The notes beneath the pieces are model-generated. The model made no database searches. It was not told the origin of the DNA and saw nothing but the letters and a program-made list of their open reading frames with translations. A DNA stretch of 50,989 bases from Bdellovibrio sp. Lineage in GTDB: Bacteria > Bdellovibrionota > Bdellovibrionia > Bdellovibrionales > Bdellovibrionaceae. Of the stretch, positions 26,586 through 47,991 are shown in pieces (the stretch's first letter is position 1; the number at the start of each line of letters is the position of its first letter). The stretch spans positions 1 through 50,989 of the forward strand of contig JABWCO010000006.1 of NCBI GenBank assembly GCA_013360185.1, given 5' to 3'. A program made the position numbers and the translations under genes.

Positions 26586-26858
26586 ATGAAAGCAAAATCC
26601 ACTTTAAAAAATAACAAAGGCCAAGGCCTGATTGAATATCTAGTTATCGTTGCGATCGTCGCCGTTGGCAGCATTGCCGTGATCAAAACTGTCGGCGCAA
26701 ATTTAAACGTCAAGTTTGCGACCGTCGCCAACGCCTTAGGCGGTAAAGAAACTCGGGCCATCAAAGCGCACGAAGTCACCGAAAGCATGTATAAAAAAAG
26801 AGACTTCAGCGACTTTTTTGAGGGCTCAGTCAATCCGTCGAAATCCGACAAAAATTAA
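26586..26858 (+). CDS. Flp-type pilin (Tad pilus major subunit candidate)
   Basis: A 90-residue prepilin. A short basic leader ends at Gly12, and the sequence that follows (QGLIEYLVIVAIVAVGSIA) has the Flp signature with Glu at +5 and Tyr at +6, so cleavage by a TadV/CpaA-type peptidase after G12 is expected. The hydrophobic helix runs to about residue 33. The mature polar tail is about 50 residues, longer than in classic Flp pilins (total 50-70), with a Ser/Lys-rich end. The strong ribosome site AAGGAG lies just before the ATG. It opens the first half of the Tad-like locus. Confidence 0.87.
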   Translation: MKAKSTLKNNKGQGLIEYLVIVAIVAVGSIAVIKTVGANLNVKFATVANALGGKETRAIKAHEVTESMYKKRDFSDFFEGSVNPSKSDKN

Positions 26859-26859
26859 T

Positions 26860-27204
26860 ATGAATATCAGGTCACGCCAGCGCGGCCAGGGCTCCGTCGA
26901 AGGCGTCTTGGCGCTGCCCTTGATTTTTTGTTTTATCACAGCTCTGGGGGCACTTGTTTATCGCGGCACCGTTTACTGCTTTGCCGACTATCATCTGCAT
27001 GAAGCTTTGATTTGCTTAGACAGCGCCTCGGTCTACGAATGCGAGCAAGAACTTTCAGCGCGCCTAAAGAAGGTTTTGCTCTTCAAAGAACAAACAGAAC
27101 TTTTTTTGCGTAAAGGCACTTCTCAATTTTCCGGGAAAATTGCCATCGATTTTTCCAGTCCTCCGAAAATGCACCTGCGCCAGATACGCGAGAGGCTGCT
27201 ATGA
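26860..27204 (+). CDS. TadE-like pseudopilin
   Basis: A 114-residue protein with a prepilin-like start: MNIRSRQRG followed by QGSVEGVLALPLIFCFITAL, so Gly9 is followed by Glu at +5 as in Tad pseudopilins, and a hydrophobic helix comes next. The mature part has three Cys (YCFADY, LICLDSA, YECEQEL) and is otherwise charged. The ATG at 26860 is one base after the pilin stop. TadE/TadF proteins are minor components that start or stabilise Flp fibres. It overlaps the next gene by 4 bases. Confidence 0.75.
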   Translation: MNIRSRQRGQGSVEGVLALPLIFCFITALGALVYRGTVYCFADYHLHEALICLDSASVYECEQELSARLKKVLLFKEQTELFLRKGTSQFSGKIAIDFSSPPKMHLRQIRERLL

Positions 27205-27938
27205 ACCACCTTAAGAGCGAAAAAGGGTTTGCATTGGCTATGATTATGGCATTGCTCCCGGTTTTTGTCGTCGGCCTAATCATTCTGTTTTCAGTCGTTA
27301 ATGTCACGCAAACCGATTTATCTGTAAAACACGTCTGCCGAAAAGAGGGCCTGACTGCGCAAAAACGCGTGGCGCCTCTATTAACGTCACTTTTGAATTT
27401 AAATCCGTTAGCGCGGTCCCTTAGGCTTCAACTGCTGGCAGCTCAGGCTGCGCGTGCTCTTGCTATCGCACAACAAAACTGGTTGCTCGTGGACAAGCAA
27501 ACCAAAAAAATTAATGAGCTCATGCAAAAGCGTAAGGAGCTCGATATTCGCCAAAAACAAATTATCCAGCAAAGCAATTTAATCCTAGCGTTCCATCACT
27601 CGGCGACCCGCACCCGCCTTCGTCAGACTTTGCAATCAAGATCTGACGTCCTCATGAGTTTACAGATGCGCGCCTTCAACGGCAAAGCCCCAAAACTCGC
27701 GGTCCGTCCGGACGACTCGGACATTGCTCCGCCCTACAGCCCCCAGGAAGACTTTGAGCACAAACAGTCTTTGGCCCATGAATGGCAATACCGTCTTTCC
27801 GTGCGTCGACCGTTTTCACTCTTCGTCAGTAACGAATTCGACTTTAAAAAATCCTGTGCCGTCACTTTAGTGAAGGAAAATTCAAAATGGCAACCAACCG
27901 TCAGCAAGGGCAAATTCTCTTGGAAGTCTGCGTGGTGA
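27201..27938 (+). CDS. TadG-like Tad locus protein
   Basis: A 245-residue protein with a start reminiscent of TadG (SEKGFALAMIMALLPVFVVG, a GFA-type N-terminus followed by a hydrophobic helix). It lacks the Glu at +5, so it is probably an uncleaved membrane anchor. The rest is a helical periplasmic part rich in Gln, Arg and Lys (LRLQLLAAQAARALAIAQQN, KRKELDIRQKQIIQQSN) with a beta-like end. There is no von Willebrand domain as in full TadG. Overlaps of 4 bases with the upstream gene and 52 bases with the next indicate tight coupling. Confidence 0.65.
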   Translation: MNHLKSEKGFALAMIMALLPVFVVGLIILFSVVNVTQTDLSVKHVCRKEGLTAQKRVAPLLTSLLNLNPLARSLRLQLLAAQAARALAIAQQNWLLVDKQTKKINELMQKRKELDIRQKQIIQQSNLILAFHHSATRTRLRQTLQSRSDVLMSLQMRAFNGKAPKLAVRPDDSDIAPPYSPQEDFEHKQSLAHEWQYRLSVRRPFSLFVSNEFDFKKSCAVTLVKENSKWQPTVSKGKFSWKSAW

Positions 27939-28069
27939 GCTTCTTTTTAGCTTTGGTCGCGTTTGCCGCGATCGGGCACTTAGAAGAAATAAAACCCGCA
28001 CAACAAAAATACAAATTCACAAAGGATCCGACCCATGTACAAAAAATATCTGCAAAAAATAAAAAGTAA
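27887..28069 (+). CDS. small prepilin-like protein (60 aa)
   Basis: A 60-residue product that begins MATNRQQG and continues QILLEVCVVSFFLALVAFAA, with Gly8 followed by Glu at +5, the third prepilin-type site in this locus. The mature tail is only about 30 residues and basic. It overlaps the upstream gene by 52 bases and the next by 35 bases in different frames. The motif fits the neighbours too well for chance, but the size is small and expression should be shown. Confidence 0.65.
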   Translation: MATNRQQGQILLEVCVVSFFLALVAFAAIGHLEEIKPAQQKYKFTKDPTHVQKISAKNKK

Positions 28070-28517
28070 TCCGCTTGTTTTGGGCTTTGTTGTTCTGGGT
28101 TTCATTTCTTATTTTTCAACCAGGGAAACACCCCCGCCAGCAATGGAAAATGAGACTCTTTTGCCGGCACCTCGTTCCGTCGATACTTTTATTCCAGTCG
28201 GGTTCACCCTAGTACCGATTGAGATCGCCAATGCGGAATCGCTGGCCTCTCTTGTCGGCGAACAAGGTGGCGTGGTTGATTTATATCTGGCTTCCAATGA
28301 CAAACAAAAAGGCGGATTGAAAGTTGGCAGTCGTTTAAAGCTTTTAAGAGCTCCCCTCAACCCTCAACAATATGCCGTATTAGTTAAAGACGACGAGGGT
28401 TCTAAGCTCTTAGGTTTCACCGGTCCTTTTATTGCCGTTGTGCAAAATCCCAACACCAAGGGATCTGAACTAACTTCCGCTTTAAAAAACCACGTGCGCG
28501 TGGAATACCAAAATTAG
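28035..28517 (+). CDS. CpaB/RcpC-like Tad assembly protein
   Basis: A 160-residue protein with an N-terminal membrane helix (NPLVLGFVVLGFISYFS) and a periplasmic part. The segment FIPVGFTLVPIEIANAESLA and the following GGVVDLYLASND with GGLKVGSRLKLL resemble the SAF/RcpC beta domain of CpaB, which stabilises the secretin and pilus base. It is shorter than usual (250-300 residues) and lacks the second half. The position after the pilin and TadE/G genes fits this role. Confidence 0.65.
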   Translation: MYKKYLQKIKSNPLVLGFVVLGFISYFSTRETPPPAMENETLLPAPRSVDTFIPVGFTLVPIEIANAESLASLVGEQGGVVDLYLASNDKQKGGLKVGSRLKLLRAPLNPQQYAVLVKDDEGSKLLGFTGPFIAVVQNPNTKGSELTSALKNHVRVEYQN

Positions 28518-28526
28518 GAGCTTGAT

Positions 28527-29399
28527 ATGAGATCTCTTTTTGCCGTCATCGTGACATTTCTGACTGTGTCCGCCCAGGCCCAAAGCATCGTTATCCGCGC
28601 ATCGGGCTCGTCGCCCGCGAAATTCAACGACTTTATGCGGTCGCGATCTGACGCAACCTCCTTTATAGACCATACACAATGGCACTTACAAAAAAACACC
28701 CTACAGGAAGATAAACTTTTTCAACTGGCCGACCTGAATAATCAAAACAGCTCTGCGGCTTTGCAACTGATAAAACAGATTCAAAGTGAAGCTCCGTTGA
28801 CCTTAACAAGTCTGCGTTATGTGCGCGATCTTACCGATCGGCTTTTGGAGCAAAAAAATTCCACCGCAGTCCAGTTAGAGCTGTTACACACATACTGTAA
28901 AGCCGCCGCCTTGCTGAACGAGGGCCCTGCGCTTAGAAGCTGTGCCTCGCAGGTCGTATCGCTAAAACAAATTGCCAAAAAATTTCCCACGGCTGAAAAA
29001 GTACTGGTGGAATCACTAAGTTTTGCCTGGGACGACAACCTGGCTCTGTCTCCGAAAACAGCCTACCAATGGACATTATTGTCAAATGCGCACACTCCGG
29101 TCCACTTTTTTGGAACATTTGATCAGTTGATAAATCAACATTTCGCTTTTGAAAATTTAATCGAAGGTTCCTGCGATGGTTTTTCTTCGAATGTCCAAGA
29201 TTTTGAAGCTGGCAATCGCGGTGTTGTCTTTTTTAATGACACTTGCTTACGCAAAATTACCACCGCCTCCGATAAAGGCTCGTGGATTGAAGAAAATAAA
29301 CCTCTGCTTTACACCGCGGGCGCGATCATTTTAGGAAGTCTTATTGTCGCTTCGGCAAAAGGCAAACGTCTCGACTGGAGCAAAACAGCCTTAAAGTAA
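28527..29399 (+). CDS. secreted, C-terminally anchored protein of the Tad locus
   Basis: A 290-residue protein with a signal peptide (MRSLFAVIVTFLTVSAQAQ) and a C-terminal membrane helix (PLLYTAGAIILGSLIVASA) followed by a basic tail. The middle is helical with four or more Cys (LLHTYCKAAALL, LRSCASQVV, IEGSCDGFS, NDTCLRK), which could form disulfides. TPR-like helices are possible (VQLELLHTYCKAAALLNEGP). No family is recognised. It follows the CpaB-like gene by 9 bases and ends the first half of the Tad locus, overlapping the convergent amidohydrolase gene by 9 bases. Confidence 0.72.
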   Translation: MRSLFAVIVTFLTVSAQAQSIVIRASGSSPAKFNDFMRSRSDATSFIDHTQWHLQKNTLQEDKLFQLADLNNQNSSAALQLIKQIQSEAPLTLTSLRYVRDLTDRLLEQKNSTAVQLELLHTYCKAAALLNEGPALRSCASQVVSLKQIAKKFPTAEKVLVESLSFAWDDNLALSPKTAYQWTLLSNAHTPVHFFGTFDQLINQHFAFENLIEGSCDGFSSNVQDFEAGNRGVVFFNDTCLRKITTASDKGSWIEENKPLLYTAGAIILGSLIVASAKGKRLDWSKTALK

Positions 29400-30650
29400 G
29401 AGCTTCGTTCCAGCGAAAACGACCTCTTTGATTTTATCCTCTTCGATAACAGTATAAGAATCCATAAACCCAGCATCCGGATGCGAATGGGCGACAGCGA
29501 GGTCGCCATTAAATTTACGGATCCCCGCTTGCACACTTTTTTCTAAAGCTTCTTTGTTACGCAAAAATGAAGGCGGTTCGACTGGACTGTCACAACCAAA
29601 AGAAATCGGAATTTGTGCAAGCCTTAACGCTTCCCAGGGGAAGACGTATTTATAAAGATCACCTAATTTATCTTCAAGCCACACCTTATCACTTAGCCAA
29701 TGGCAAGGCTGCATGTGACAGCGCACATGCAAAGGCTTCATCATTTGAATAGTTTCGGGTCTGAGAAGTTGCGCATGTTCGATATTTAAACGACCGACCG
29801 AGCCTTTGGCTGACACTTTTCTGGCCAGATCTACAATCTGATGAGCAGCTTCATCACCGATAGTGTGCACGGAAAAATCTAAGCCTGCTGCCCACGTTCG
29901 TTTAAGAACTTCTTCAATGTCCGCAAGGTCCCACAAGGGAGTCCCTCTCGGGCCATCGCCTTTGCCATTGTAGGGCTTTGAAAGATACGCCGTTTGAGAG
30001 CCCAAAGAGCCGTCGTAAAAGACCTTTACACCTTTCATGCGCACATAAGGCGTTTCAGTTTTTTTTGCGCGCACGCATAAATCTAAAATGCTCTCGAAGT
30101 CGTTAAGGTCATGGGATGTCACATTTTCTTCAATAGCCAGAGTCAGCTCTTTTGCCTCTGATAGCGACACCAGATTATGCCACAAAGATTCTGTGCAGGA
30201 CATGTCCCTTACGTGCGTAAAGCCCGATTTATTGAAAACCCGGCAGGCTGTCAGAATATGCCCACGCTGTTGCTCGTGAGTATAATCCGGCAAACGGTCC
30301 CAGGCTTGGAGATGTTCTTTTTCCATTAGGACACCGGTTTCCGAAGCAAAACCTAAATATTGTAAAGCCTTTGAATTGACCCAACAACGATGACCATCCA
30401 TACGCGCGAAAAAAACGGGATGGTCGGGAAAAATAAGATCTAAGATTTTTTTATGCGGAGGTTCTGGCCATGCGGTTTCGTTCCAACCGAACCCCATCAA
30501 CCACTCACCACGATAATACGAACTCTTGAGAGGAATTTTCGCCACGTCGCTGGCACTTTTTAGTTCACCTAAAGCAAGGCCCCCAGCGAATTCTCCGGTC
30601 GCAATAAAGTGAGTGTGGCTGTCGTAAAGACGAGGGATTTTTAAAAGCAT
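29391..30650 (-). CDS. YtcJ-like amidohydrolase
   Basis: A 419-residue metal-dependent hydrolase of the amidohydrolase superfamily. The N-terminal HxH metal motif is unusually early (D-S-H12-T-H14), because the family's usual N-terminal beta domain is absent. Further blocks are the Lys/Asp region (GVKVFYDGSLGSQTA), the His segment SVHTIGDEA, NIEHAQLL, and SFGCDSPVEPPSF with the catalytic Asp. This fits the YtcJ/LAF3 group, which often hydrolyses amides of unknown nature. Its ribosome site lies inside a hairpin (see the terminator entry). The 3' end overlaps the Tad-locus gene. Confidence 0.85.
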   Translation of the reverse strand: MLLKIPRLYDSHTHFIATGEFAGGLALGELKSASDVAKIPLKSSYYRGEWLMGFGWNETAWPEPPHKKILDLIFPDHPVFFARMDGHRCWVNSKALQYLGFASETGVLMEKEHLQAWDRLPDYTHEQQRGHILTACRVFNKSGFTHVRDMSCTESLWHNLVSLSEAKELTLAIEENVTSHDLNDFESILDLCVRAKKTETPYVRMKGVKVFYDGSLGSQTAYLSKPYNGKGDGPRGTPLWDLADIEEVLKRTWAAGLDFSVHTIGDEAAHQIVDLARKVSAKGSVGRLNIEHAQLLRPETIQMMKPLHVRCHMQPCHWLSDKVWLEDKLGDLYKYVFPWEALRLAQIPISFGCDSPVEPPSFLRNKEALEKSVQAGIRKFNGDLAVAHSHPDAGFMDSYTVIEEDKIKEVVFAGTKLLL

Positions 30651-30703: not shown

Positions 30704-32662
30704 TTATCGCGCGGCCGGGATTGGCGCTGTGCCAGTGCCCGTTCCGACTCCACCCGGCAAAGGTGTAATTCCTGTGCCCGTCCCAATTCCGATACTGCCG
30801 CCAATTGAGCCACCAATGTAGCTGCCGCCTCCGTATTGGATTTGCTGAATGCGATATAACAAACCATAAAGCTCTTGCTGTAAGCTCGCCACTGCTTGCT
30901 GTTTTTGCATTTGCTGTTGCATATAGGTTTGCTGTTGCTGCATGTACATTTGGTATTGTTGCATTTGCATTTGCATCATTTGTTGTTGCATTTGCATTGA
31001 GCCTAGGCCCCCGGCCATTCCGCCCATCATCGGCATACCCATTCCGCCCATCGGCATTCCCATGCCCATACCACCCATAGGCATTCCCATGCCGCCCATC
31101 ATTGGCATTCCCATGCCGCCGCCCATCAAGCCACCAAGAGCTCCGCCCATGGGCATTCCCATGCCGCCCATCATTGGCATTCCCATTCCACCATTCATCA
31201 GGCCACCAAGAGCACCGCCCATTGGCATACCCATTCCGCCCATTGGCATACCCATTCCGCCCATTGGCATTCCCATGCCCATACCACCCATGGGCATTCC
31301 CATGCCGCCCATCATTGGCATTCCCATTCCGCCACTCATTAGGCCGCCAAGAGCGCCGCCCATTGGCATACCCATTCCACCCATCGGCATTCCCATGCCC
31401 ATGCCGCCCATACCACCCATGCCGTATGGACCATTCATTCCCCAAGGACCCATGCCTGGAAGATAAATTCCGCCGCCTAAGCCGCCACCAAGACCGCCAA
31501 GACCTGCCATGCCATAGGGATTGCCCCACATGCCATTTCCATTCATGCCACCATAAGGACCGGCCATACCATAAGGACCACCATTGTTGCCTGCGCAACC
31601 GAAAGCCCCCGCACCAATACCACCGCTCATGGAGCCGTAAATACCGCTGCCGCCGCCAACCATTTGACCAATGCCCGTGCCGATAGCCCCAAGACCGTAA
31701 CCATATCCCATTGCTGCGTATGGATTTGTCTCCCAACCATTTTGAGCGTTGTAACCAGCGATCATTTTATTCGTTTGATAACCCATGACTAAAGAAGCCA
31801 AGCCAAGTCCTACGTTACCTGCAACAGAGCCCCAGTCAGTTTCGGGTTTACGATATTGGTAACCCGCACCTTGTGCGATACAACCTACGCAAACGCCACC
31901 CTCAAGCTGAGCTTCGCGCGCTTCACGTTGTTGTTCTCTGCGCTCTTCCGCAAGACTTTTGCGTGAGTCTTTGATGTTATCTTTTGCTTGGCGAACTGCA
32001 TTTTCTAAAGATTCAATTTCAGATTGGAGTCTTCCAGATTGAGTATATTTGTTGCGGTATTCGATCAAACCCGTTTTACAATCTTGGGCCGTTGCACGCC
32101 CTTTAGACGGCTGACGATAATCTGCGCCGTCACACACCGCGCCGCTTACGGCACCAGGCTTGTTCGGATCGCAAAGATTTTTCCATTGTTCAAGACTGAA
32201 ACCTGTAATCGTTTTACCATTCGACGGTGTCCCATCGGATTTTGTAGGAACAACGGACTTACCGCCTTCGGACACTTGCGATACGGAATCTTTTGGATCC
32301 ACCGCCAGCGCTGCATAGTCCGTACACTTTGTCGTGTTTTCAATGTGATCGAACATGAAAGAAGTAAACTCTTCACGCACCACACCTTCGACATTTTTAC
32401 GAGCCTTATTGAGGTCGTTCGTCAGTCTTCTTTTTTCAGATTTTTTTTCGCGAATTTGTCGTTGCGCCTCAGAGATCGCCTCTTGCGCTTCTTTGATGTC
32501 ATCCAAATGACTGCTAGAGCCTTCGGCCGCCGCATATGGGTAAGGACATGCTTGCATACCACCGTAAATTCCGGCTCCCCACATTCCTGATTGGGCTTGA
32601 GCACCTACTGCAAAACCAGTCACCAATGTGAAGAGAGTTGCAATGCGCATCGAAATTCTCAT
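30704..32662 (-). CDS. secreted Met/Gly repeat protein with coiled-coil head
   Basis: A 652-residue exported protein of a kind I do not recognise. A signal peptide (MRISMRIATLFTLVTGFAVG) ends near AQAQ. Residues ~50-90 and ~210-245 are strongly charged coiled coils (EAISEAQRQIREKKSEKRRL, SLAEERREQQREAREAQLE). They flank a Cys-containing globular part (NLCDPNKP, AVCDGAD, QDCKTG). A CVGC pair follows. Residues ~280-400 are Gly/Tyr/Asn-rich. Residues ~400-550 are nearly pure Gly, Met and Pro repeats built from GGMGMPM. A Gln/Met-rich coiled segment (about 555-610) and a Gly/Thr tail ending PIPAAR close the protein. A strong ribosome site AGGAGAT precedes the ATG. The gene sits inside the split Tad locus and is divergent from the kinase at 32877. 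Confidence 0.8.
   Translation of the reverse strand: MRISMRIATLFTLVTGFAVGAQAQSGMWGAGIYGGMQACPYPYAAAEGSSSHLDDIKEAQEAISEAQRQIREKKSEKRRLTNDLNKARKNVEGVVREEFTSFMFDHIENTTKCTDYAALAVDPKDSVSQVSEGGKSVVPTKSDGTPSNGKTITGFSLEQWKNLCDPNKPGAVSGAVCDGADYRQPSKGRATAQDCKTGLIEYRNKYTQSGRLQSEIESLENAVRQAKDNIKDSRKSLAEERREQQREAREAQLEGGVCVGCIAQGAGYQYRKPETDWGSVAGNVGLGLASLVMGYQTNKMIAGYNAQNGWETNPYAAMGYGYGLGAIGTGIGQMVGGGSGIYGSMSGGIGAGAFGCAGNNGGPYGMAGPYGGMNGNGMWGNPYGMAGLGGLGGGLGGGIYLPGMGPWGMNGPYGMGGMGGMGMGMPMGGMGMPMGGALGGLMSGGMGMPMMGGMGMPMGGMGMGMPMGGMGMPMGGMGMPMGGALGGLMNGGMGMPMMGGMGMPMGGALGGLMGGGMGMPMMGGMGMPMGGMGMGMPMGGMGMPMMGGMAGGLGSMQMQQQMMQMQMQQYQMYMQQQQTYMQQQMQKQQAVASLQQELYGLLYRIQQIQYGGGSYIGGSIGGSIGIGTGTGITPLPGGVGTGTGTAPIPAAR
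31010..31460. repeat. in-frame Gly-Met-Pro codon repeat array
   Basis: The DNA is a run of near-identical short units encoding GGMGMPM on the minus strand. There are larger blocks: a GGALGGLM unit followed by xGGMGMPMMGGMGMPM occurs three times, starting near residues 437, 483 and 507. Unit spacing differs (about 46 and 24 residues), as expected from slippage or unequal crossover. Long open frames on both strands in this region are a side effect of the repeats. Confidence 0.9.
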
Positions 32663-32876
32663 ACTCGATCTCCTGAAAAGGATAAAAAAATTCTTCTTAT
32701 CGTATTAATTATCGTCAGGAGAGGTCGCAGACTTGACTCATTTCTGAGCAAAACTGTGGAAACGTTATGAAACTGGACCAGAGCCCAGTCCTTATTCCCT
32801 GTCATCCTCCATGACAACAAGTAGACCCGCGCAAAATACTTTGCACGGACCTATCTCAAATTCTACACTACCTAAT

Positions 32877-33983
32877 ATGACTAAGCACACAATTCTTTGC
32901 GTTGATGATGAAATTGATAACGTCGATGCCTTGGAACGACTGTTCCGCAAGCAGTTCACAGTACTAAAGGCGACCTCAGGTAAAGAGGCGCTAGACATCC
33001 TGGCCAAAAATCCAGGCCCTGTTTCGCTAATTATCACCGATCAAAGAATGCCAGAAATGACTGGTGTAGAGTTTTTAGAAAAAACTTTGAACTCTCATCC
33101 TGATACAGTTCGCATTTTATTAACGGGTTACACCGATCTCGAATCCGTGATCATGGCCGTCAACAAAGGACAAATCTTTCGTTACCTGACGAAACCTTGG
33201 GATCCAGTGGACTTGGGCAATACCGTTGAACGCGCGGTCGAGCATTATAATCTGGGCCAAGAGCTAAAGAAAAAGAACGCGGACTTGGCAAAAGCCCTAG
33301 ATGAATTAAAAAGTTTAGATGTCGCCAAATCAAATTTTATGATTTTGATCAATCACGAGTTGAAAACTCCGCTGACTTCAATTTTAAGTTTTTCATCGTT
33401 GTTGGCCGAATCCAATTTAAACGACGAAGACAAATTGATGGTGAATCGTATTTCTAAAAGTGCAGATAAGTTAAAAAACCTAGTAGATGACGTCTTGCTG
33501 GTTGTCCGGGCTGAAACTAATCAATTAAAAATTGAAAAACAAAGCGTCGCTTTCAACCAATTTGACGAGGGCCTAGGCAAAGACGTCACTGACTTAATAA
33601 ATAAAAAACAGCAGCGCCTTACGAGTAAACTTGAACCCTTAAACGTGCAAGCTGATGTACGTTTAATTAAGCAAGTCGTGCAACGCCTGATTCATAACGC
33701 CGCCAAGTTTGGAGACGAGGCCAGTGAGATTCAACTAGAAAGTTTACGCAGTGGGAACTGCCTGCGCTTTTTAGTTTCGAACAAAGGACCGCAATTGCCC
33801 GCTTCGGTTATCAGCAAAATCACTAAGCCATTTTATATTGATGAAGATGTGATGCACCACTCTAGTGGGACCGGTCTTGGGCTTACGATCTGTCAGTCGA
33901 TTTTAAAGTCCCATCAGTCGCAATTGCAGTTTAAAAACACCGACCAAGGGGTGATGGTGTTCTTCGAGTTACCGCTCGGCTGA
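32877..33983 (+). CDS. soluble response-regulator/histidine-kinase hybrid
   Basis: A 368-residue cytoplasmic signalling protein. The receiver domain (about 1-125) has the acidic pair (VDDE), the phospho-accepting D55 (LIITDQRMPEMTG), Thr in LLTGYTD and Lys106 (TKPWDP). A short coiled linker leads to a HisKA domain with H160 (MILINHELKTPLTSIL) and an ATPase domain. In the ATPase the N-box is RLIHNAAKFG and the G2 box is SSGTGLGLTI. The G1 box, normally DxGxG, reads SNKGPQLP: the key Asp is missing. It has no membrane or sensor domain, so it is driven by phosphotransfer from another kinase. The ATG at 32877 gives the usual receiver start (MTKHTILCVDDE). It is divergent from the Met/Gly gene. 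Confidence 0.85.
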   Translation: MTKHTILCVDDEIDNVDALERLFRKQFTVLKATSGKEALDILAKNPGPVSLIITDQRMPEMTGVEFLEKTLNSHPDTVRILLTGYTDLESVIMAVNKGQIFRYLTKPWDPVDLGNTVERAVEHYNLGQELKKKNADLAKALDELKSLDVAKSNFMILINHELKTPLTSILSFSSLLAESNLNDEDKLMVNRISKSADKLKNLVDDVLLVVRAETNQLKIEKQSVAFNQFDEGLGKDVTDLINKKQQRLTSKLEPLNVQADVRLIKQVVQRLIHNAAKFGDEASEIQLESLRSGNCLRFLVSNKGPQLPASVISKITKPFYIDEDVMHHSSGTGLGLTICQSILKSHQSQLQFKNTDQGVMVFFELPLG

Positions 33984-34058
33984 TTTTGTCCGGAATCCGG
34001 TCCTAAGATTCCTTTAAAACTAGCTGAACGCCGCATGGGTTTTGCTTTCATCCCTCGC

Positions 34059-35357
34059 ATGAAAAACTTTATTCTTTTCTCCATTTTTATTTCATCTTTA
34101 AGCTTCGCAAATCCGAACAATCTGACCTTACCTTTGGGCACCTCGCAACGGCTGCCCTTAAAAGGAGAGTCTTCGGTGTGGATCCAAGATCGCGAGATCC
34201 TGAAAGCCGAAGTGCAAGGCACCTATTTAGTTATTCGCGGATCTCGCGAAGGCAAAACTCTTTTAAAAGTCGGCGCCAATTCATACTCAATCCAAGTGCT
34301 GCATCCGGCAAAGACCGACTCATTGGAGGACTTGCAACGAGAGCTTAAAAACTTAGTCGGGCTATCAAGCCGTGTCGCAGAAGGTGATCTGTTAATTCAG
34401 GGCCGACTATATCGGATGAAGGATTGGGCGCGCCTTGCAGAGGTCGCACGTGCCCGCGAATTTAGTTACCAAATGCGTGCCGAGCTGTCCGTAAGCCTGC
34501 AGGAAGAGGCTCAAGAATATTTTCAAGATCTTTTTGCTAATGCGAAACTGCCGCCGCAAACAATCATCTTTCAACCGTCCCCAGAAATTCGCGTGAATAC
34601 TGCAGATTTGCTCTTTAAAAAATATCAGCAACTGCTTAAGCCCTTTGGCATTTCGGTTCTTAAGGACGAAAACAGTTTGGACATTGCCCCGACAGTTAAA
34701 GTACAAATCACCGTGGTTGAAATCAAGCGCACTTTCAGCCTGAAATATGGCTTAGACTGGTCGAAGAGTTATTCAGCCCAAGTCATAGACGCAAATAAAA
34801 CTTCACCACTGGATCTGCCCTTTGATGTCCATGCGATGGAGTCCAGCGGACAGGGGAAAATCCTAGCCAGTCCCAACATCCTATGTCGCAGTGGGAAGGA
34901 AGCCGAGTTTTTAGCCGGCGGAGAATTCCCAATCAAGATAGTGGGCTACCGAACCCAAGATCTTGTATGGAAACGCTATGGAATTTTGCTGAAAGTAAAA
35001 CCCAAAGCCGATGCGGCTGGTCGCATAAGTCTTTCCATCGATACTGAGATCACGACTCTGGATCAGGGCATGGCCGTTGATAACATTCCGGGCTTATTGA
35101 CGAATCGAGTTTCAAGTCACTTTGATTTGACTCGACCCCAAACGATTGCGCTGTCAGGTCTGTTGAAAAGTGAAGACGGTGAAAGCTCTTCGGGATTGCC
35201 CTTCCTTTCTCGCCTTCCCATTTTAGGGGCTTTATTTTCAAGCAAAGACTTCCGTGAACACCGCTCTGAACTGGTCATCTTTGTTCGCCCGACAATTTTG
35301 CCAGAAGGCGACAACGGCGAAAGTATCGGTCATCTCAAAGGCAAGGAGAGAATCTAA
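34059..35357 (+). CDS. cpaC: CpaC/RcpA-type Tad secretin
   Basis: Forms the outer-membrane channel of Flp/Tad pili. The 432-residue protein has a signal peptide (MKNFILFSIFISSLSFA) and the pilus-formation N-domain (LTLPLGTSQRLPLKGESSVW). BON-like segments follow at about 95-165. The secretin domain begins at about 220 (VKVQITVVEIKRTFSLKYGL). Core signatures are ILASPNILCRSGKEAEFLAG, GGEFPIKI, YGILLKVKP, and the end SRLPILGALFSSKDFREHRS with VIFVRPTI. The ATG at 34059 is chosen because it begins the signal peptide. Its stop codon overlaps the ATPase start by one base. Confidence 0.87.
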   Translation: MKNFILFSIFISSLSFANPNNLTLPLGTSQRLPLKGESSVWIQDREILKAEVQGTYLVIRGSREGKTLLKVGANSYSIQVLHPAKTDSLEDLQRELKNLVGLSSRVAEGDLLIQGRLYRMKDWARLAEVARAREFSYQMRAELSVSLQEEAQEYFQDLFANAKLPPQTIIFQPSPEIRVNTADLLFKKYQQLLKPFGISVLKDENSLDIAPTVKVQITVVEIKRTFSLKYGLDWSKSYSAQVIDANKTSPLDLPFDVHAMESSGQGKILASPNILCRSGKEAEFLAGGEFPIKIVGYRTQDLVWKRYGILLKVKPKADAAGRISLSIDTEITTLDQGMAVDNIPGLLTNRVSSHFDLTRPQTIALSGLLKSEDGESSSGLPFLSRLPILGALFSSKDFREHRSELVIFVRPTILPEGDNGESIGHLKGKERI

Positions 35358-36466
35358 TGCTAGACGCAAAAAGAATTTATGAGCAAATCCAAAGCGACAT
35401 CCAGCAAATACCTCTGAACGAATTTCTTTTATCACCCGAAGAAGAAAATAATTTACGTTCGCAAAAAGTCGCAGGGATTATCAACAAAAACTTACAAAAC
35501 GTCGACGTTTCCGTAAAAGCACGAGTGCAAAATGAACTGTCATCATGCGGTCCTCTCTGCGAACTTTTAGAAAACGAACAAATCACCGAGATTCTGGTCA
35601 ACACTCCGAACTCGATATGGTTTGAAATGAATGGTCGACTGCAGCGCCACCCCGATAGCTTTTTTTCGGAATTGAGCTTTCGCAACTGCTTGGATCGCAT
35701 GTGCCATGAAGCTGATGCTCATATAACCATCGAACATCCCACAGCTGATGGGAGCTTCCGCGAATTTCGCTTTAGCTTAGTCGGTGCAGAACTGACCCAC
35801 GAGTTCCCTCATTTTTCTTTGCGCCGTCATCCTAAAAATCCTTGGACGTTTCATCGCCTGCAACAAAAAAACTGGTGTACAGAATCTGATTTACTTTTCT
35901 TCGGCAAACTGATCGAAGAACGTAAAAATTTTTTGGTCATTGGCGCCACAGGTGTAGGCAAAACGTCGGTCCTAAATTCATTCTTAAATCTGTTGCCGGA
36001 AAATGAACGGGTTGTTGTCATCGAAGACACCTCAGAAATTGTTTTACCGAACAGCGCAAGCACGAAACTTTTAACTCGTGAAGATCCGCAGGGCGTGTTA
36101 CCCAGCGTCGACCAAGGACAGTTGGTCAAAAGATCTTTGCGTTTGCGACCTGATCGTTTGGTGATGGGTGAAATCCGCGGCGCCGAAGCTAAAGACTTTT
36201 TAATGTCCTTAGCCACCGGTCACGCCGGCAGTTTTGGCACTTTACACGCCCAAGATGCCGGCCAGGCCCTGATCCGCTTAGAGATGCTTATACAAATGGG
36301 AGCCCCGCAATGGAGTCTGACCGCCATTCGTCGCTTGATTCAGTTATCTTTAGACTATGTGATCGTAGCCGGCAAAAACTCTCACGGACAACGCTCCTTT
36401 AAAGGGGCCTATCGCATTTGCTCTTTAGAAGAACACGGCTTCTTAATTGAGCCCGCGACTTTCTGA
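35357..36466 (+). CDS. cpaF: CpaF/TadA-type secretion ATPase
   Basis: Powers assembly (and in some species retraction) of the Tad pilus. The 369-residue product has the N-terminal segment NEQITEILVNTPNSIWFEM-like family block, the Walker A GATGVGKTS (from about residue 197), the Asp box VVVIEDTSEI, Walker B RLVMGEIRG and the His box SLATGHAGSFGTLHAQ. It lacks a long N-terminal extension and is shorter than most CpaF (about 450). The membrane platform proteins TadB and TadC do not follow, unlike in standard tad operons. The 3' end overlaps the convergent rhomboid gene by 24 bases. Confidence 0.87.
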   Translation: MLDAKRIYEQIQSDIQQIPLNEFLLSPEEENNLRSQKVAGIINKNLQNVDVSVKARVQNELSSCGPLCELLENEQITEILVNTPNSIWFEMNGRLQRHPDSFFSELSFRNCLDRMCHEADAHITIEHPTADGSFREFRFSLVGAELTHEFPHFSLRRHPKNPWTFHRLQQKNWCTESDLLFFGKLIEERKNFLVIGATGVGKTSVLNSFLNLLPENERVVVIEDTSEIVLPNSASTKLLTREDPQGVLPSVDQGQLVKRSLRLRPDRLVMGEIRGAEAKDFLMSLATGHAGSFGTLHAQDAGQALIRLEMLIQMGAPQWSLTAIRRLIQLSLDYVIVAGKNSHGQRSFKGAYRICSLEEHGFLIEPATF

Positions 36467-42738: not shown

Positions 42739-43524
42739 TTAGGCTACTTCTAATTCTCCAGCACCGATTGTTGCTGCGAGTTTTGCACGAAGGCGTGTGA
42801 CCGCTTGTGCATGCAGTTGCGACACCCGAGATTCCGTGACACGTAAAACTTGTCCAATTTCTTTTAGATTTAAATCTTCATAGTAATATAACGAAAGAAC
42901 CAAGCGTTGTCTTTCTGGCAATTCTTCAATTGCTTGCGCGACAACTTCTTTGATGTTCTTAACATTGAGTTGATTGAAAGGAGAGTTCGTGCGTGAGCCT
43001 TCCAAGATATCCATGATTGATTTTTTATCTGTGTTACTAAATGTCGTCGCCTGGTCGATAGGCAACAAGCTAACCGGACGCACTTGGTTCACCAGATCGT
43101 GAAATTCATCGATGGAAACATTTAAAGTTTTAGCAACTTCTTCATCCGTTGGGGAACGGCCTAAGTCAGCTTCCAATTGAACCATAGTTTTATCTAATAA
43201 TTTTGCTTTATCACGAATTGAGCGCGGCACCCAGTCTTGGGCTCGTAACTCATCAAGAATTGCTCCACGAATACGGAACTCAGCGTAAGTTTTAAATTTA
43301 TTGTCACGTGATGAGTCGTATTTATCAATAGCATCCATCAAGCCGATGACTCCTGCAGAAATCAAGTCATCCAATTCAATATTTGAAGGCAAACGTACGG
43401 CGATCTTCTGCGCAATAAACTTAATCAACGGCGCGTACTCACGAATCACATCGTCTTTCTTGTCGGCAGCAAGCTTACGAGGCTCATCTTTGTACTTCTT
43501 TAACAATGCCGCATTTTTTGCCAT
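42739..43524 (-). CDS. fliA: FliA/WhiG-family flagellar sigma factor
   Basis: Sigma-28, which directs RNA polymerase to late flagellar promoters. The 261-residue protein has region 2 (PLIKFIAQKIAVRLPSN, DDLISAGVIGLMDAIDKYD), FKTYAEFRIRGAILDELR with the -10 contact, the region 3 signature DWVPRSIRDKA, and region 4 (LPERQRLVLSLYYYEDLNLK, EIGQVLRVTESRVSQLHAQA). These are clear FliA hallmarks. It is the last gene of the flagellar operon read from the right, about 110 bases after flhG. Confidence 0.94.
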   Translation of the reverse strand: MAKNAALLKKYKDEPRKLAADKKDDVIREYAPLIKFIAQKIAVRLPSNIELDDLISAGVIGLMDAIDKYDSSRDNKFKTYAEFRIRGAILDELRAQDWVPRSIRDKAKLLDKTMVQLEADLGRSPTDEEVAKTLNVSIDEFHDLVNQVRPVSLLPIDQATTFSNTDKKSIMDILEGSRTNSPFNQLNVKNIKEVVAQAIEELPERQRLVLSLYYYEDLNLKEIGQVLRVTESRVSQLHAQAVTRLRAKLAATIGAGELEVA

Positions 43525-43632
43525 ATTTTTCCCTCTTGAAATAATATTATCAAACCGAAGTCAGAGCTGAAAGTCCAAATCCGAACTCACCACCAAAATC
43601 CAAGACCAAGGCAGGAGCTTTCCCCAGCCTGG

Positions 43633-44463
43633 CTATGCGAATCCAACGACTTGGTCCCAGAACATTTGCATACCGCCGGCTGTTTCGATTTGCTTCGAAG
43701 ACTTCTCGATTTGTGCACAAACTTGACGGATGGCTTTTGCAGATTCGGACCCCACATCATGTCTCACAATAAGACGCTGCATTTGTGTTGCTTTTCTTAA
43801 AACCGCATCGTTAGGAATTGAGCCCCAATAATCCAGACCAATGTACAGAAACTTATTCACGACATCGTTGAAGCGTTGGTACAAGCCCAAACCCTCTTGT
43901 TCGTCACGAACTTGGTTACAGATGATCGAAAAGTGGTTCACCTTGTAATTGCGATTCAGAACTTTTATTAAAGCATACGCATCCGCAAAACTCGCGGGAT
44001 CTGGCGTGATCACAACGGAAACTGTTTGGGCTGCTGAGTTTAGAAACAAAACATTTTCAGCAATTCCTGGTGCTGTATCAATTAACAAGTAATCAAATCC
44101 TAATGGCAAAGAACTTACGGCTTCAACCATCGCGCGGCGCTCAAAGTGATTTAAGTGATTAAACTCTACCACCCCACTGCCACCAGGAATTAGGTGCACA
44201 TCCTTAGAGACTTCCACCAGGATGTCCTTCATTTCTTTACGTCCCCCCAGAATGTCGTGGATGTTGCCATGAGTTTTCACACCGAAAAGAATATCTACGT
44301 TGGCCATGCCTAGGTCGCCGTCTAAAATTAAAACTTTTTTCCCGCGTTGGGCTAGGGTCAAAGCCAAGTTAGCGACCAGAGTGGTCTTCCCCACCCCACC
44401 CTTACCAGAGGTGATACTGATCGTGCGCGTGCGATGCATATTGAATGAGTTTAAATTTCTCAT
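43633..44463 (-). CDS. flhG: FlhG/FleN, MinD-like ATPase for flagellar number
   Basis: A 276-residue ParA/MinD-family ATPase that limits flagellar number with FlhF. The deviant Walker A is SGKGGVGKTT (residues 19-28) and the switch motif is LILDGDLGMANVDILFG. Walker B is YLLIDTAPG. The membrane-targeting region is less clear, and the DQAxxLR motif that activates FlhF is not seen at the N-terminus. The start overlaps the flhF stop by 4 bases. A weak stem (43606-43632) follows its stop. Confidence 0.92.
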   Translation of the reverse strand: MRNLNSFNMHRTRTISITSGKGGVGKTTLVANLALTLAQRGKKVLILDGDLGMANVDILFGVKTHGNIHDILGGRKEMKDILVEVSKDVHLIPGGSGVVEFNHLNHFERRAMVEAVSSLPLGFDYLLIDTAPGIAENVLFLNSAAQTVSVVITPDPASFADAYALIKVLNRNYKVNHFSIICNQVRDEQEGLGLYQRFNDVVNKFLYIGLDYWGSIPNDAVLRKATQMQRLIVRHDVGSESAKAIRQVCAQIEKSSKQIETAGGMQMFWDQVVGFA

Positions 44464-45902
44464 ACGGCCTCTGAGTCTTGGTGCTTAAGTTTGGTAATTT
44501 TAAAAATCAAATCTAGCAGACGCTCTTTGGTGGCGAATTCAAAGTCTTCGGGCACGCGTGGGCCAATGCCGAAGGAGTGTAATGGCACATCAAAGCGCTT
44601 CATAAAATTATAAATCGTCCCATGCTGAGTGGATTCATCCAAAGAGGTGAAGATCACATCTTTATAGCCAAGCACTGAATAACGGCGACCGAGCTCTGTC
44701 GCATCACTGTCTTTGGCATTCGTCGATAGACACAAGTGCACATTCGGATTTAGGGCAGCTGGTGGTAACAAGCTCTTCAGCATTTGGATTTCTTCGTTGC
44801 TCTTTAAGCTTAAACCTGTGTAGTCAACAAGCACACAGTCGACGTTGGCAAGATAACGCATCAGATTTGTCCAATCGTTCTGTGTGCGTATAACAGAGAA
44901 TGGAACGTTTAGGATTTGCGCATATATTTTCATTTGATCAGCGGCACCCACTTTGAAAGTGTCTGTCGTGAAAAGGGCGATTTTTTTACCCTCACGCACC
45001 ACCATTTGGCTGGCCATTTTAATAAGGGCCGAAGTTTTTCCTGCACCGGCAGGGCCCACAAAACAATGAATTTTTCCAGCGGTTGGATTGTGCGAAACCT
45101 TTGTTGAATCTAGTACATAACGAGCCACCCAAGCTTCAATCAAAGAACGATTCTTCAGCTTTAGGGTCGGCAAGGTCTCTTGAGCTTTAGTTAAAATTTC
45201 GCCTGCGATTTCTGGCGCCATTCCTGCGGTTGTGAGCTTTTCGAAAACAAAGCTAAGATCATAAGTGATACCGTAATCCGCTCCTGGATGTGTACCGACA
45301 AAATTTTGGGGCATCTGTTGGAACTGAGAAATGACTTGTTTTAGGCCTTCGATTTGACTCTTCAGGGCCATGATTTCATTGGATTCAACGGACGCCTTGG
45401 GTCTTGCGGCCACTGGAACCGGCGCAGCTGCCGGAGTTGTCACCCGCTTCACTGTTCCGCGCACCATGTCTTCTTGTTCCTGAAAAGCGTTTAATGCTCT
45501 TTGTGCGGCAGAGCGAACGCGCTCTTCCGACATTTGCTTTTGTTTGGCTAAAGCTGATTCATCTTCGATTTCGATATAACGACGTTGTGTGATCGCAGCT
45601 GGCGCTTGTGTCTTTTGCACATGTTTTTCCACCATCTTAGTGATCAGCTCTTTTTGTTGTCTGGCTGGGCTTTTCAGGAATTTTTCGCGATCTGCTTCAC
45701 GCAGTCTTGATTCTGCAAATTTTTTCTTTTGCAAAGTTTCATCTGATACCGCTGCGGTGATTTCAACACTGCCTTCGCCGACAAGACCGAAGCTTTTGTT
45801 ATTATCCCGTGCAGACAGAATGATCGCATCAGGACCCATCTGGGTCTTGACCATCTCAAGCGCTTCCTTCATCGTTCTGGCTTCAAATTTCTTAACCTGC
45901 AT
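44460..45902 (-). CDS. flhF: FlhF, SRP-like GTPase for flagellar placement
   Basis: A 480-residue GTPase that sets the polar site of flagellar assembly. The B domain (residues 1-210) starts with the FlhF signature KKFEARTMKEALEMVKTQMG and is Ala/Pro-rich afterward. The NG domain starts at about 215, with G1 CFVGPAGAGKTSALIK (about 281-296), the Asp of G3 in CVLVDYTG (the usual DTxG reads DYTG) and G4 region LSTNAKDSDATE. It overlaps flhA by 11 bases and flhG by 4. Confidence 0.93.
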   Translation of the reverse strand: MQVKKFEARTMKEALEMVKTQMGPDAIILSARDNNKSFGLVGEGSVEITAAVSDETLQKKKFAESRLREADREKFLKSPARQQKELITKMVEKHVQKTQAPAAITQRRYIEIEDESALAKQKQMSEERVRSAAQRALNAFQEQEDMVRGTVKRVTTPAAAPVPVAARPKASVESNEIMALKSQIEGLKQVISQFQQMPQNFVGTHPGADYGITYDLSFVFEKLTTAGMAPEIAGEILTKAQETLPTLKLKNRSLIEAWVARYVLDSTKVSHNPTAGKIHCFVGPAGAGKTSALIKMASQMVVREGKKIALFTTDTFKVGAADQMKIYAQILNVPFSVIRTQNDWTNLMRYLANVDCVLVDYTGLSLKSNEEIQMLKSLLPPAALNPNVHLCLSTNAKDSDATELGRRYSVLGYKDVIFTSLDESTQHGTIYNFMKRFDVPLHSFGIGPRVPEDFEFATKERLLDLIFKITKLKHQDSEAV

Positions 45903-47991
45903 GGCTCATCTCCACAAGTGCAACTGATTGAACATCCGCATCTGAAGTTAATTCGTTGTGCGAAAGAACTACTAGCTGAGGAATAAAACGAGACGTTAAT
46001 TTATAAATATGACGACGCGAGGTCGGGCTGGTCAGCAAAATTGGCTGACTAGCAATTTCCGGATGGTCTTCAACTGCGCGAGCGATCTCATTGATCAAAC
46101 GATGCGCGGTATTTGGATCCATCACCAATTGAACCCCTTGTTCTGTTTGTAGCAAAGAGTTCGCAATGGTTTCTTCAATGACTGGATGCAAAGTCATAAC
46201 GGGGATATTGCCTTGATCTGTTGTGTACTTCGCGGTGATTCCGCGAGCCAAGCCACGACGAACTTGTTCAGTCAGAACCTCAGTATCTTTCGTGCGAGGT
46301 GCTTCATCAGCCAGCGTTTCAAAAATCGTTAAGAGGTTACGGATTGATACTTGTTCTTTAAGAAGACTTTGCAGAACCCGCACGACGGAGCCCAAAGGCA
46401 ACATGTCTGGGATAAGTTCTTCAACCACCTTAGGATGGGATTTTTTGAAGTTTTCAATCAGCGTCGCAGCTTCTTGACGGCCCAACAGCTCATGCGCATG
46501 CGCACGAATGATCTCGGTCAAATGAGTGGCCATCACAGTTGGCAGATCCACGACTGTGTAACCTGCGATCTCCGCATCTTCTTTACGAACTGGCGAAATC
46601 CACAATGCGTCTAAGCCGAAAGCAGGCTCTTTGGTCGCAATACCATCGATACGCTCTGCCACATTACCTGGATCCATAGCCAACATGGATTCTGGACGAA
46701 GAGTGCCGCCGCCCACGCGATTTCCTTTAATTAACACACGGTATTCACCCGGCGCTAACTGCAAATTGTCGCGAATGTGAATGCTTGGCACGACGATTCC
46801 CAGATCCAAAGCAAATTGTTTTCGGATACTGACGATACGCTCTAGCAAGTCACCACTTTGATCGGACTCAACGATATTGATAAGTCCGTAACCCACTTCA
46901 AGTTCGACCATATCCAGAGGCAACATGGACTCGATATTTTCTTTTTTCGGAGCGGACAACGCAGCATCTGAGCTTCTTTTTTCACTTTCGGTCTTCTCGA
47001 TACGAGCTTTGGTAATAATCCACGCAGTCCCACACAATAACCCGCCCATCAAAAGAAACGGTAACGTTGGTAAACCCGGGACGAGTCCCATAAGAATCAA
47101 GACGCCACCAGAAATCATAACCGCACGGGGTTTCACGAAAAGCTGACTGGTGACCTCTTCACCTACGTCTTTATCTGAATTTGAAGTACGCGTAACAATG
47201 ATACCGGCCGCGGTCGAAATTACTAGCGCCGGAATTTGTGCTAACAGACCGTCACCGATTGTTAACATCGTATAGAACTTAGCAGCCGTACCGACATCCA
47301 AACCTTTTTGAATCACACCGATAGCTAAACCACCCAGAATGTTGATCATCGTAATAATGATCCCGGCAATAGCGTCTCCGCGAACGAACTTCGAGGCACC
47401 GTCCATCGCTCCGTAAAAGTCCGCTTCACCTTCAATTTGCTTACGACGTTTGCGCGCCTCGGCTTCGGTGATATGACCTGAATTTAATTCGGCATCAATC
47501 GACATCTGCTTACCGGGCATGGCATCTAATGTGAAACGAGCCGCAACTTCGGCCACGCGCCCCGAACCCTTTGTGATGACCATGAAGTTAATGACCATCA
47601 AGATGATGAACATCACAAAACCGATCACATAGTTTCCACCGACAACGAAATTGGCGAAGGACGCAATGACCTCGCCCGCTGCCTTTTCACCTTCATGTCC
47701 GTGAGTTAGGATCAAACGAGTCGTTGCGACGTTTAAGGACAGACGGAACAACGTCGTCATTAAGAGTAATGAAGGAAATGACGTAAAATCTAACGCCCGG
47801 TCCGTATAGATGCTGACCAAAAGAATCAAAATGCTGATCGCCAACGATACCGTCAGTGATATATCCAACATAAAAGGTGGAAGTGGAATAATCATGACTG
47901 CTAAAACCGCAAGCAAACCGAAAGCAATCAGCAAATCGGTATTGCGGGTGATTTTGTCAAAGCGCTTTAAGAATTGAAATACATCATCCAT
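45892..47991 (-). CDS. flhA: FlhA, flagellar export gate protein
   Basis: The 699-residue protein has eight N-terminal helices and a cytoplasmic domain that docks export chaperones. The FHIPEP-family block (about residues 140-165) reads RVAEVAARFTLDAMPGKQMS with IDAELNSG. The cytoplasmic domain begins at about 345 (MVELEVGYGLINIV) and has PAFGLDALWISPV and RGLARGITAKYTT. The length matches the family. The start overlaps the flhB stop by one base. Confidence 0.96.
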   Translation of the reverse strand: MDDVFQFLKRFDKITRNTDLLIAFGLLAVLAVMIIPLPPFMLDISLTVSLAISILILLVSIYTDRALDFTSFPSLLLMTTLFRLSLNVATTRLILTHGHEGEKAAGEVIASFANFVVGGNYVIGFVMFIILMVINFMVITKGSGRVAEVAARFTLDAMPGKQMSIDAELNSGHITEAEARKRRKQIEGEADFYGAMDGASKFVRGDAIAGIIITMINILGGLAIGVIQKGLDVGTAAKFYTMLTIGDGLLAQIPALVISTAAGIIVTRTSNSDKDVGEEVTSQLFVKPRAVMISGGVLILMGLVPGLPTLPFLLMGGLLCGTAWIITKARIEKTESEKRSSDAALSAPKKENIESMLPLDMVELEVGYGLINIVESDQSGDLLERIVSIRKQFALDLGIVVPSIHIRDNLQLAPGEYRVLIKGNRVGGGTLRPESMLAMDPGNVAERIDGIATKEPAFGLDALWISPVRKEDAEIAGYTVVDLPTVMATHLTEIIRAHAHELLGRQEAATLIENFKKSHPKVVEELIPDMLPLGSVVRVLQSLLKEQVSIRNLLTIFETLADEAPRTKDTEVLTEQVRRGLARGITAKYTTDQGNIPVMTLHPVIEETIANSLLQTEQGVQLVMDPNTAHRLINEIARAVEDHPEIASQPILLTSPTSRRHIYKLTSRFIPQLVVLSHNELTSDADVQSVALVEMSHAG

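Follow-up and report, generated by a model that had tools for sequence, protein, structure and literature searches.

The stretch of Bdellovibrio DNA analysed here (the window, 50,989 nucleotides) carries, within a second Tad pilus region, a gene for a Gly/Met/Pro repeat protein that we call MGM. The genes and features discussed below are as follows, with the strand given in brackets.

26586..26858 (+), Flp pilin (flp3-like, GQGLIEY; Flp_Fap E of 4.4e-7, just under the cut-off)
26854..28517 (+), TadE-like, TadG-like, small pilin-like and CpaB-like genes (N-terminal motifs recognised by eye; no Pfam match)
29391..30650 (-), amidohydrolase (Amidohydro_3), codirectional neighbour of MGM
30704..32662 (-), MGM coding sequence, 652 aa, intact frame
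30707..30832 (-), uncharged C-terminal tail of MGM, its last residue the near-invariant Arg652
30833..31012 (-), Gln/Met-rich helix of MGM, residues 551-610, QQQMMQMQMQQ ... LQQELYGLLYRIQQ
31013..31432 (-), GGMGMPM repeat domain of MGM, residues 411-550
31433..31867 (-), Gly-rich hydrophobic stretch of MGM, residues 266-410, with Cys356 and a conserved PGMGPWGMNG motif
31868..32593 (-), Cys-rich head of MGM, a predicted helical hairpin, residues 24-265, with seven of the eight conserved Cys and the invariant H106
32594..32662 (-), signal peptide of MGM, residues 1-23, cleavage placed by eye between AQA and Q
32710..32736 (-), FliA (sigma-28)-like promoter element TCAAG-N16-ACGATA
32811..33983 (+), response regulator-histidine kinase, divergent from MGM; conserved start probably near 32877
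34035..35357 (+), CpaC/RcpA-type secretin
35357..36466 (+), TadA-type ATPase
42739..43524 (-), FliA sigma-28 gene (TIGR02479 over the cut-off)

No RNA families or tRNAs were found in the window. The ATG start codon of MGM is preceded by a conserved RBS-like sequence, CAGGAGAT. An earlier note made from the DNA alone had described the product as a signal-peptide protein with two charged coiled coils, a CVGC pair and about 150 residues of GGMGMPM units between Gly/Tyr/Asn-rich and Gln/Met-rich flanks, and most of this description held. The N-terminus is signal-peptide-like, and its residue A21 is invariant in 15 relatives; charged helical stretches lie at about residues 52-120 and 190-255, the Cys pair is C258-V-G-C261, and the two flanks occupy residues 321-410 and 551-600, respectively. 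The repeat is real, but its pure part spans 140 residues. No transmembrane anchor was detected in MGM, as no 19-residue window exceeded 1.06 on the Kyte-Doolittle scale.

The 140 residues of the repeat domain comprise 61 G, 52 M and 14 P, amounting to 91% Gly/Met/Pro. Ten perfect GGMGMPM heptads were counted, whereas in 2000 shuffled versions of the domain the most frequent heptad reached at most eight copies (mean 2.2). These ten heptads carry seven different codings, so the run is not the product of fresh slippage; the unit has been kept at the protein level while synonymous sites changed. Furthermore, D, E, K and R are all absent from residues 321-586, a feature that the first reading had missed.

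Searches of Pfam, NCBIfam and PHROGs returned no match for MGM and only weak coiled-coil matches in its relatives, and a search of PDB sequences with a profile of the head yielded coiled-coil noise (E of at least 0.02), in agreement with the earlier statement that no described family has this build. Matches to MGM were found in 49 of 60 relatives by whole-genome search. The profile of the head recovered the family in 33 of the 37 genomes listed for the order, while the 107 genomes from elsewhere in the phylum gave no match. General absence of the gene from related genomes, which the earlier note had named as evidence against its reading, was not observed; almost all members of the genus and family have it. 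Where the sequence search was negative, the chromosomal slot often holds a diverged copy of the MGM build (G043, G046, G050 and G055), and two genomes (G041 and G048) have lost the gene. MGM is a real, order-wide and unnamed family of unusual design, restricted to the order of Bdellovibrio. In G057, the slot (P0002; L164 9398-11194) holds a 598-aa exported Cys-containing protein that is Pro/Tyr-rich, has no Gly repeat and ends in Phe.

A paralogue, B, with the same head and little repeat is encoded in the same genome (G000:C188, locus L059). It is present in most genomes of the genus, beside other genes and far from the Tad genes. Identity between MGM and its own B copy was 36-45% over residues 24-262 and rose to 73-82% over residues 262-350 (high-identity segment, window 31580-31880 versus L059 8850-10442). 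The B copies of G005 and G019 cluster with the Tad-slot (A) copies of their own genomes. The segment identities and the tree of the N-terminal half indicate that A and B copies exchange sequence by gene conversion. A gene resembling those of L,D-transpeptidases lies convergent to paralogue B in the three genomes inspected (L059 8850-12044; L081; L071), and an OmpR-type regulator and a histidine kinase also adjoin B in L059 and L071.

The promoter-like element upstream of MGM matches the attack-phase FliA consensus of Bdellovibrio, TTAAG-N16-CCGATA (PMC3627812), at 9 of 11 positions with identical spacing. A TCAAGT-N13-TGACGAT block is conserved in the divergent intergenic region; its exact form occurs at the same place in 24 other genomes, in none of the B loci and once in its own genome. 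A looser pattern gave 27 matches across the genome, compared to 5 in reversed controls, and these include FliL, a FlaG-like gene and flp1, the last of which belongs to the main Tad locus and is FliA-dependent in HD100 (PMC5430801). Members of the HD100-like clade have a weaker -10 element (ACGAAG). Because the MGM element resembles the attack-phase consensus, attack-phase expression is predicted, with FliA as the predicted sigma factor for MGM. Among relatives the exact element is conserved more strictly than a FliA site would require, and it may hold a second regulatory signal. About 10 kb from MGM, window positions 42739-47991 encode FliA, a MinD/FlhG-like ATPase, an SRP54-type (FlhF-like) GTPase and an FlhA-type protein. 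The open main texts of papers make no mention of the probable HD100 locus tags of MGM, nor was an experiment on MGM found in them.

The earlier note had placed the gene inside the Tad pilus locus. MGM is indeed flanked by Flp/pilin-like genes (26.6-28.5 kb) and by the secretin and TadA genes (34.0-36.5 kb), and it lies between such genes in most genomes of the order. However, the locus is a second, minimal one that lacks TadB, TadC and TadV, MGM is read from the other strand under a promoter of its own, divergent from the response regulator-histidine kinase, and the link is not strict: G041 and G048 have the Tad genes without MGM, and in G053 MGM is not adjacent to CpaC/TadA. The genes flp1 and another TadA gene are located on contig C151 of the same genome. 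This arrangement agrees with the published layout in HD100, where flp3 is bd3297, bd3306/bd3307 are pilQ- and cpaF-like, and the main Tad locus is bd0109-bd0119 (PMC5430801, PMC3818213). MGM could be a Tad accessory, namely a sheath, a tip-associated adhesin or a secretin-associated protein of the second Tad pilus. Its position would fit such a role, as would the variable tip proteins borne by the Tad pili of predators (PMC12075869) and the FliA control of flp1. The whole chromosomal region is syntenic, so co-occurrence of MGM and the secretin is only loosely informative. The signal peptide is of the Sec type without a prepilin motif, and MGM is therefore not a minor pilin. In addition, paralogue B has no Tad genes nearby, and in HD100 the flp3 gene of the second locus is silent and does not respond to FliA (PMC5430801). 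Taken with the strand and the incomplete linkage, these points make a Tad accessory rather doubtful.

Nearly every copy retains eight Cys (39, 113, 164, 177, 195, 258, 261 and 356) and H106. In the AlphaFold2 prediction, the head consists of two long antiparallel helices with a Cys-rich cap closing them; when the head was modelled alone, these helices were mostly above 90 pLDDT (overall pLDDT 76.5, pTM 0.63). The Gly-rich parts were predicted to be disordered, which may partly reflect the shallow alignment of 16 sequences, and the Q/M-rich helix near the C-terminus had a pLDDT of about 60. Structure searches of the full model and the head alone gave best E values of 0.29 and 0.13, respectively, with Foldseek, and generic coiled coils with VIA (Z of 9.3, rmsd 6.5, 131 aligned for the full model; Z of 9.9, rmsd 12.2, 162 aligned for the head), and matches in a viral structure library had E values of at least 0.1. 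The modelled fold is like that of many coiled-coil hairpins and points to no one family. At the other end, Arg is the last residue in 54 of 61 family members, compared to 13 of 480 neighbouring proteins, and most of the non-Arg C-termini belong to cut or disrupted copies. The terminal Arg closes a 40-60 residue uncharged Gly/Thr/Pro tail. It is possible that this Arg is a sorting or attachment signal.

Two such ends would also suit a periplasmic spacer or scaffold, attached through the head on one side and the C-terminal Arg on the other, that ties inner envelope parts to the outer membrane. The near-invariant Arg, the coiled-coil ends around a flexible middle and the L,D-transpeptidase gene convergent with paralogue B would be consistent with this. 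However, MGM contains no peptidoglycan-binding or lipoprotein motif, its tail is unusually hydrophobic for a spacer, and Arg is not the known acceptor of L,D-transpeptidases. A spacer therefore appears unlikely.

When the tail was compared in relatives, GGMGMPM was found not to be conserved: the same slot carries MMGMPM, MMGAYPGAMV, GFAGMPGMA, GLGG, GGYAGY or NGGFGGNGGFPG in other lineages, and tail length (140-350 residues) and Met content (3-36%) vary widely. Charge does not; 29 copies with clean boundaries had 0 to 2 charged residues in the tail, a count that leaves out L041, L042, L052 and L064, whose tail boundaries start too early. Gly makes up 23-54% of the tail, together with M, A, L, F or Y. 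The median of 2P+G was 0.55 in Tad-slot copies, near and not clearly above the elastomer range, and lower, at 0.36, in paralogue B. What is conserved across the order is the architecture rather than GGMGMPM, comprising the eight-Cys head, the Gly-rich stretch bearing PGMGPWGMNG, the uncharged low-complexity tail, the Q/M helix and the C-terminal Arg. The dense Met of this copy reads as a local variant of a wider conserved property, a long uncharged Gly-rich tail.

This variation bears directly on the suggestion that the methionines bind Cu(I) or Ag(I) or soak up oxidants. The 52 Met within 140 residues would suit such a sink, and Met-rich periplasmic peptides for oxidant or metal use are known in other bacteria. 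However, in some orthologous tails of the same slot Met drops to 3-7% and its place is taken by Leu, Ala, Tyr or Phe, and this replacement in several lineages disfavours a Met-specific copper or oxidant role; what is conserved is the uncharged Gly-rich character. Moreover, no MsrP-, MsrA- or copper-type gene was present among the scanned neighbours, and the single PMSR-type MsrA gene (PMSR being the family searched genome-wide) lies on another contig. Neither the metal-binding nor the oxidant version of the suggestion held up, and we regard a methionine sink as very improbable. Neutral expansion of a low-complexity stretch whose sequence has no function would account for the quick turnover of the repeat in sequence and length, but it is just as improbable in view of the synonymous variation among units that keep their protein sequence, the near absence of charged residues across the order and the retained flanking motifs.

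The reading that we favour, tentatively and at somewhat less than an even chance, is that MGM is a structural protein made in the attack phase, exported and self-associating, whose tail is elastin- or silk-like. Hydrophobic chains high in Pro and Gly self-assemble as elastomers, and their assembled state is hydrated and disordered (PMC5703643). The uncharged Gly/Pro/soft-hydrophobic chain and the folded ends of MGM match this composition, which suggests elastomer-type self-assembly. Its repeats are Gly/Pro-rich, uncharged and hydrophobic like those of elastin and silk, by composition; neither Pfam and NCBIfam searches with MGM nor the head profile run against PDB sequences revealed a homologous elastomer or silk, low-complexity matching being weak evidence. 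The favoured reading draws on the architecture kept under a changing repeat, the eight Cys, the modelled hairpin with its disordered tail, the tail composition, the units retained despite synonymous change, the lack of a transmembrane-like segment and the FliA-like element. The weaker -10 element of the HD100-like clade, the shallow alignment, the 2P+G values and the G057 slot protein count against it. Of the functions put forward in the earlier note, a flexible, self-associating layer remains the preferred one.

Under this structural reading, the head, probably stabilised by disulfides, and the Gln/Met-rich helix near the C-terminus would serve as association ends. The long low-complexity chain between them, uncharged and composed of Gly, Pro and soft hydrophobic residues, would be free to drift in its exact repeat. 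Many copies, presumably exported through the Sec-type signal peptide, may then self-associate via this chain and the coiled coils, building up a cohesive but flexible layer or thread on the cell surface or within the envelope. Transcription of the FliA type would assign MGM to the hunting phase, and a compliant adhesive or mechanical layer beside the Tad machinery could help to hold prey.

A bolder form of this structural reading would be a lineage-specific bacterial elastomer or glue. Disulfide-headed, elastin-like Gly/Met/Pro chains would form an attack-phase surface material beside a Tad-type machine, with a repeat that drifts while staying uncharged and Gly-rich and a C-terminal Arg that acts as an unrecognised sorting or attachment signal. 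We consider this form somewhat unlikely. Prey attachment is reported to persist when the type IVb (Flp) pilins are deleted, the same is stated for type IVa pilin, and other adhesion proteins have been suggested (PMC5430801). Being order-wide, predicted to be expressed in the attack phase and probably exported, with an adhesive- or elastomer-like tail, MGM is a concrete candidate for this gap. If the material reading is true, MGM would be a natural bacterial elastin-like polymer, and its orthologues would constitute a ready variant library of constant design. In addition, a sorting signal of a new kind could come to light through the C-terminal Arg.

Several known systems resemble MGM in part. 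Met-rich periplasmic oxidant scavengers of the MrpX type are exported, have a Met-dense repeat and pair with MsrP, whereas the Met density of MGM is not conserved and its scanned neighbours include no Msr gene. The minor-pilin Tip complexes of Tad systems (KilL/M/N, TadEFG; PMC12075869) are likewise variable exported proteins encoded beside Tad genes in predators. They are, however, prepilin-processed pilins with a hydrophobic alpha1 helix, as opposed to MGM, which has a Sec signal and in whose sequence a class III prepilin signal (G/A-XXXX-E) with hydrophobic alpha1 is absent. The hit-locus proteins Bd0108 and Bd0109 (PMC3818213, PMC4267844) are also exported Bdellovibrio proteins encoded beside Tad genes, and Bd0108 is disordered. 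They differ from MGM in locus and sequence, Bd0108 having about 100 aa and Bd0109 being an Rhs/YD-repeat protein. MGM was rejected as a hit-locus protein of the Bd0109 kind, and YD repeats (PF05593) were not found in it with Pfam. The low-complexity proteins of barnacle cement (PMC5099703) share with MGM a secreted, Gly-rich, low-complexity structural design and a possible adhesive use, but they are polar Ser/Gly proteins with basic interblocks, as opposed to the uncharged Met/Gly/Pro tail of MGM. Elastin, elastin-like polypeptides (VPGVG) and Gly-rich silks differ from MGM in that it is bacterial, without sequence homology to them, has an eight-Cys helical head and, in this copy, uses Met for Val. 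The likeness is one of composition and covers uncharged Gly/Pro and soft-hydrophobic repeats, low complexity, predicted disorder, and folded or cross-linkable ends.
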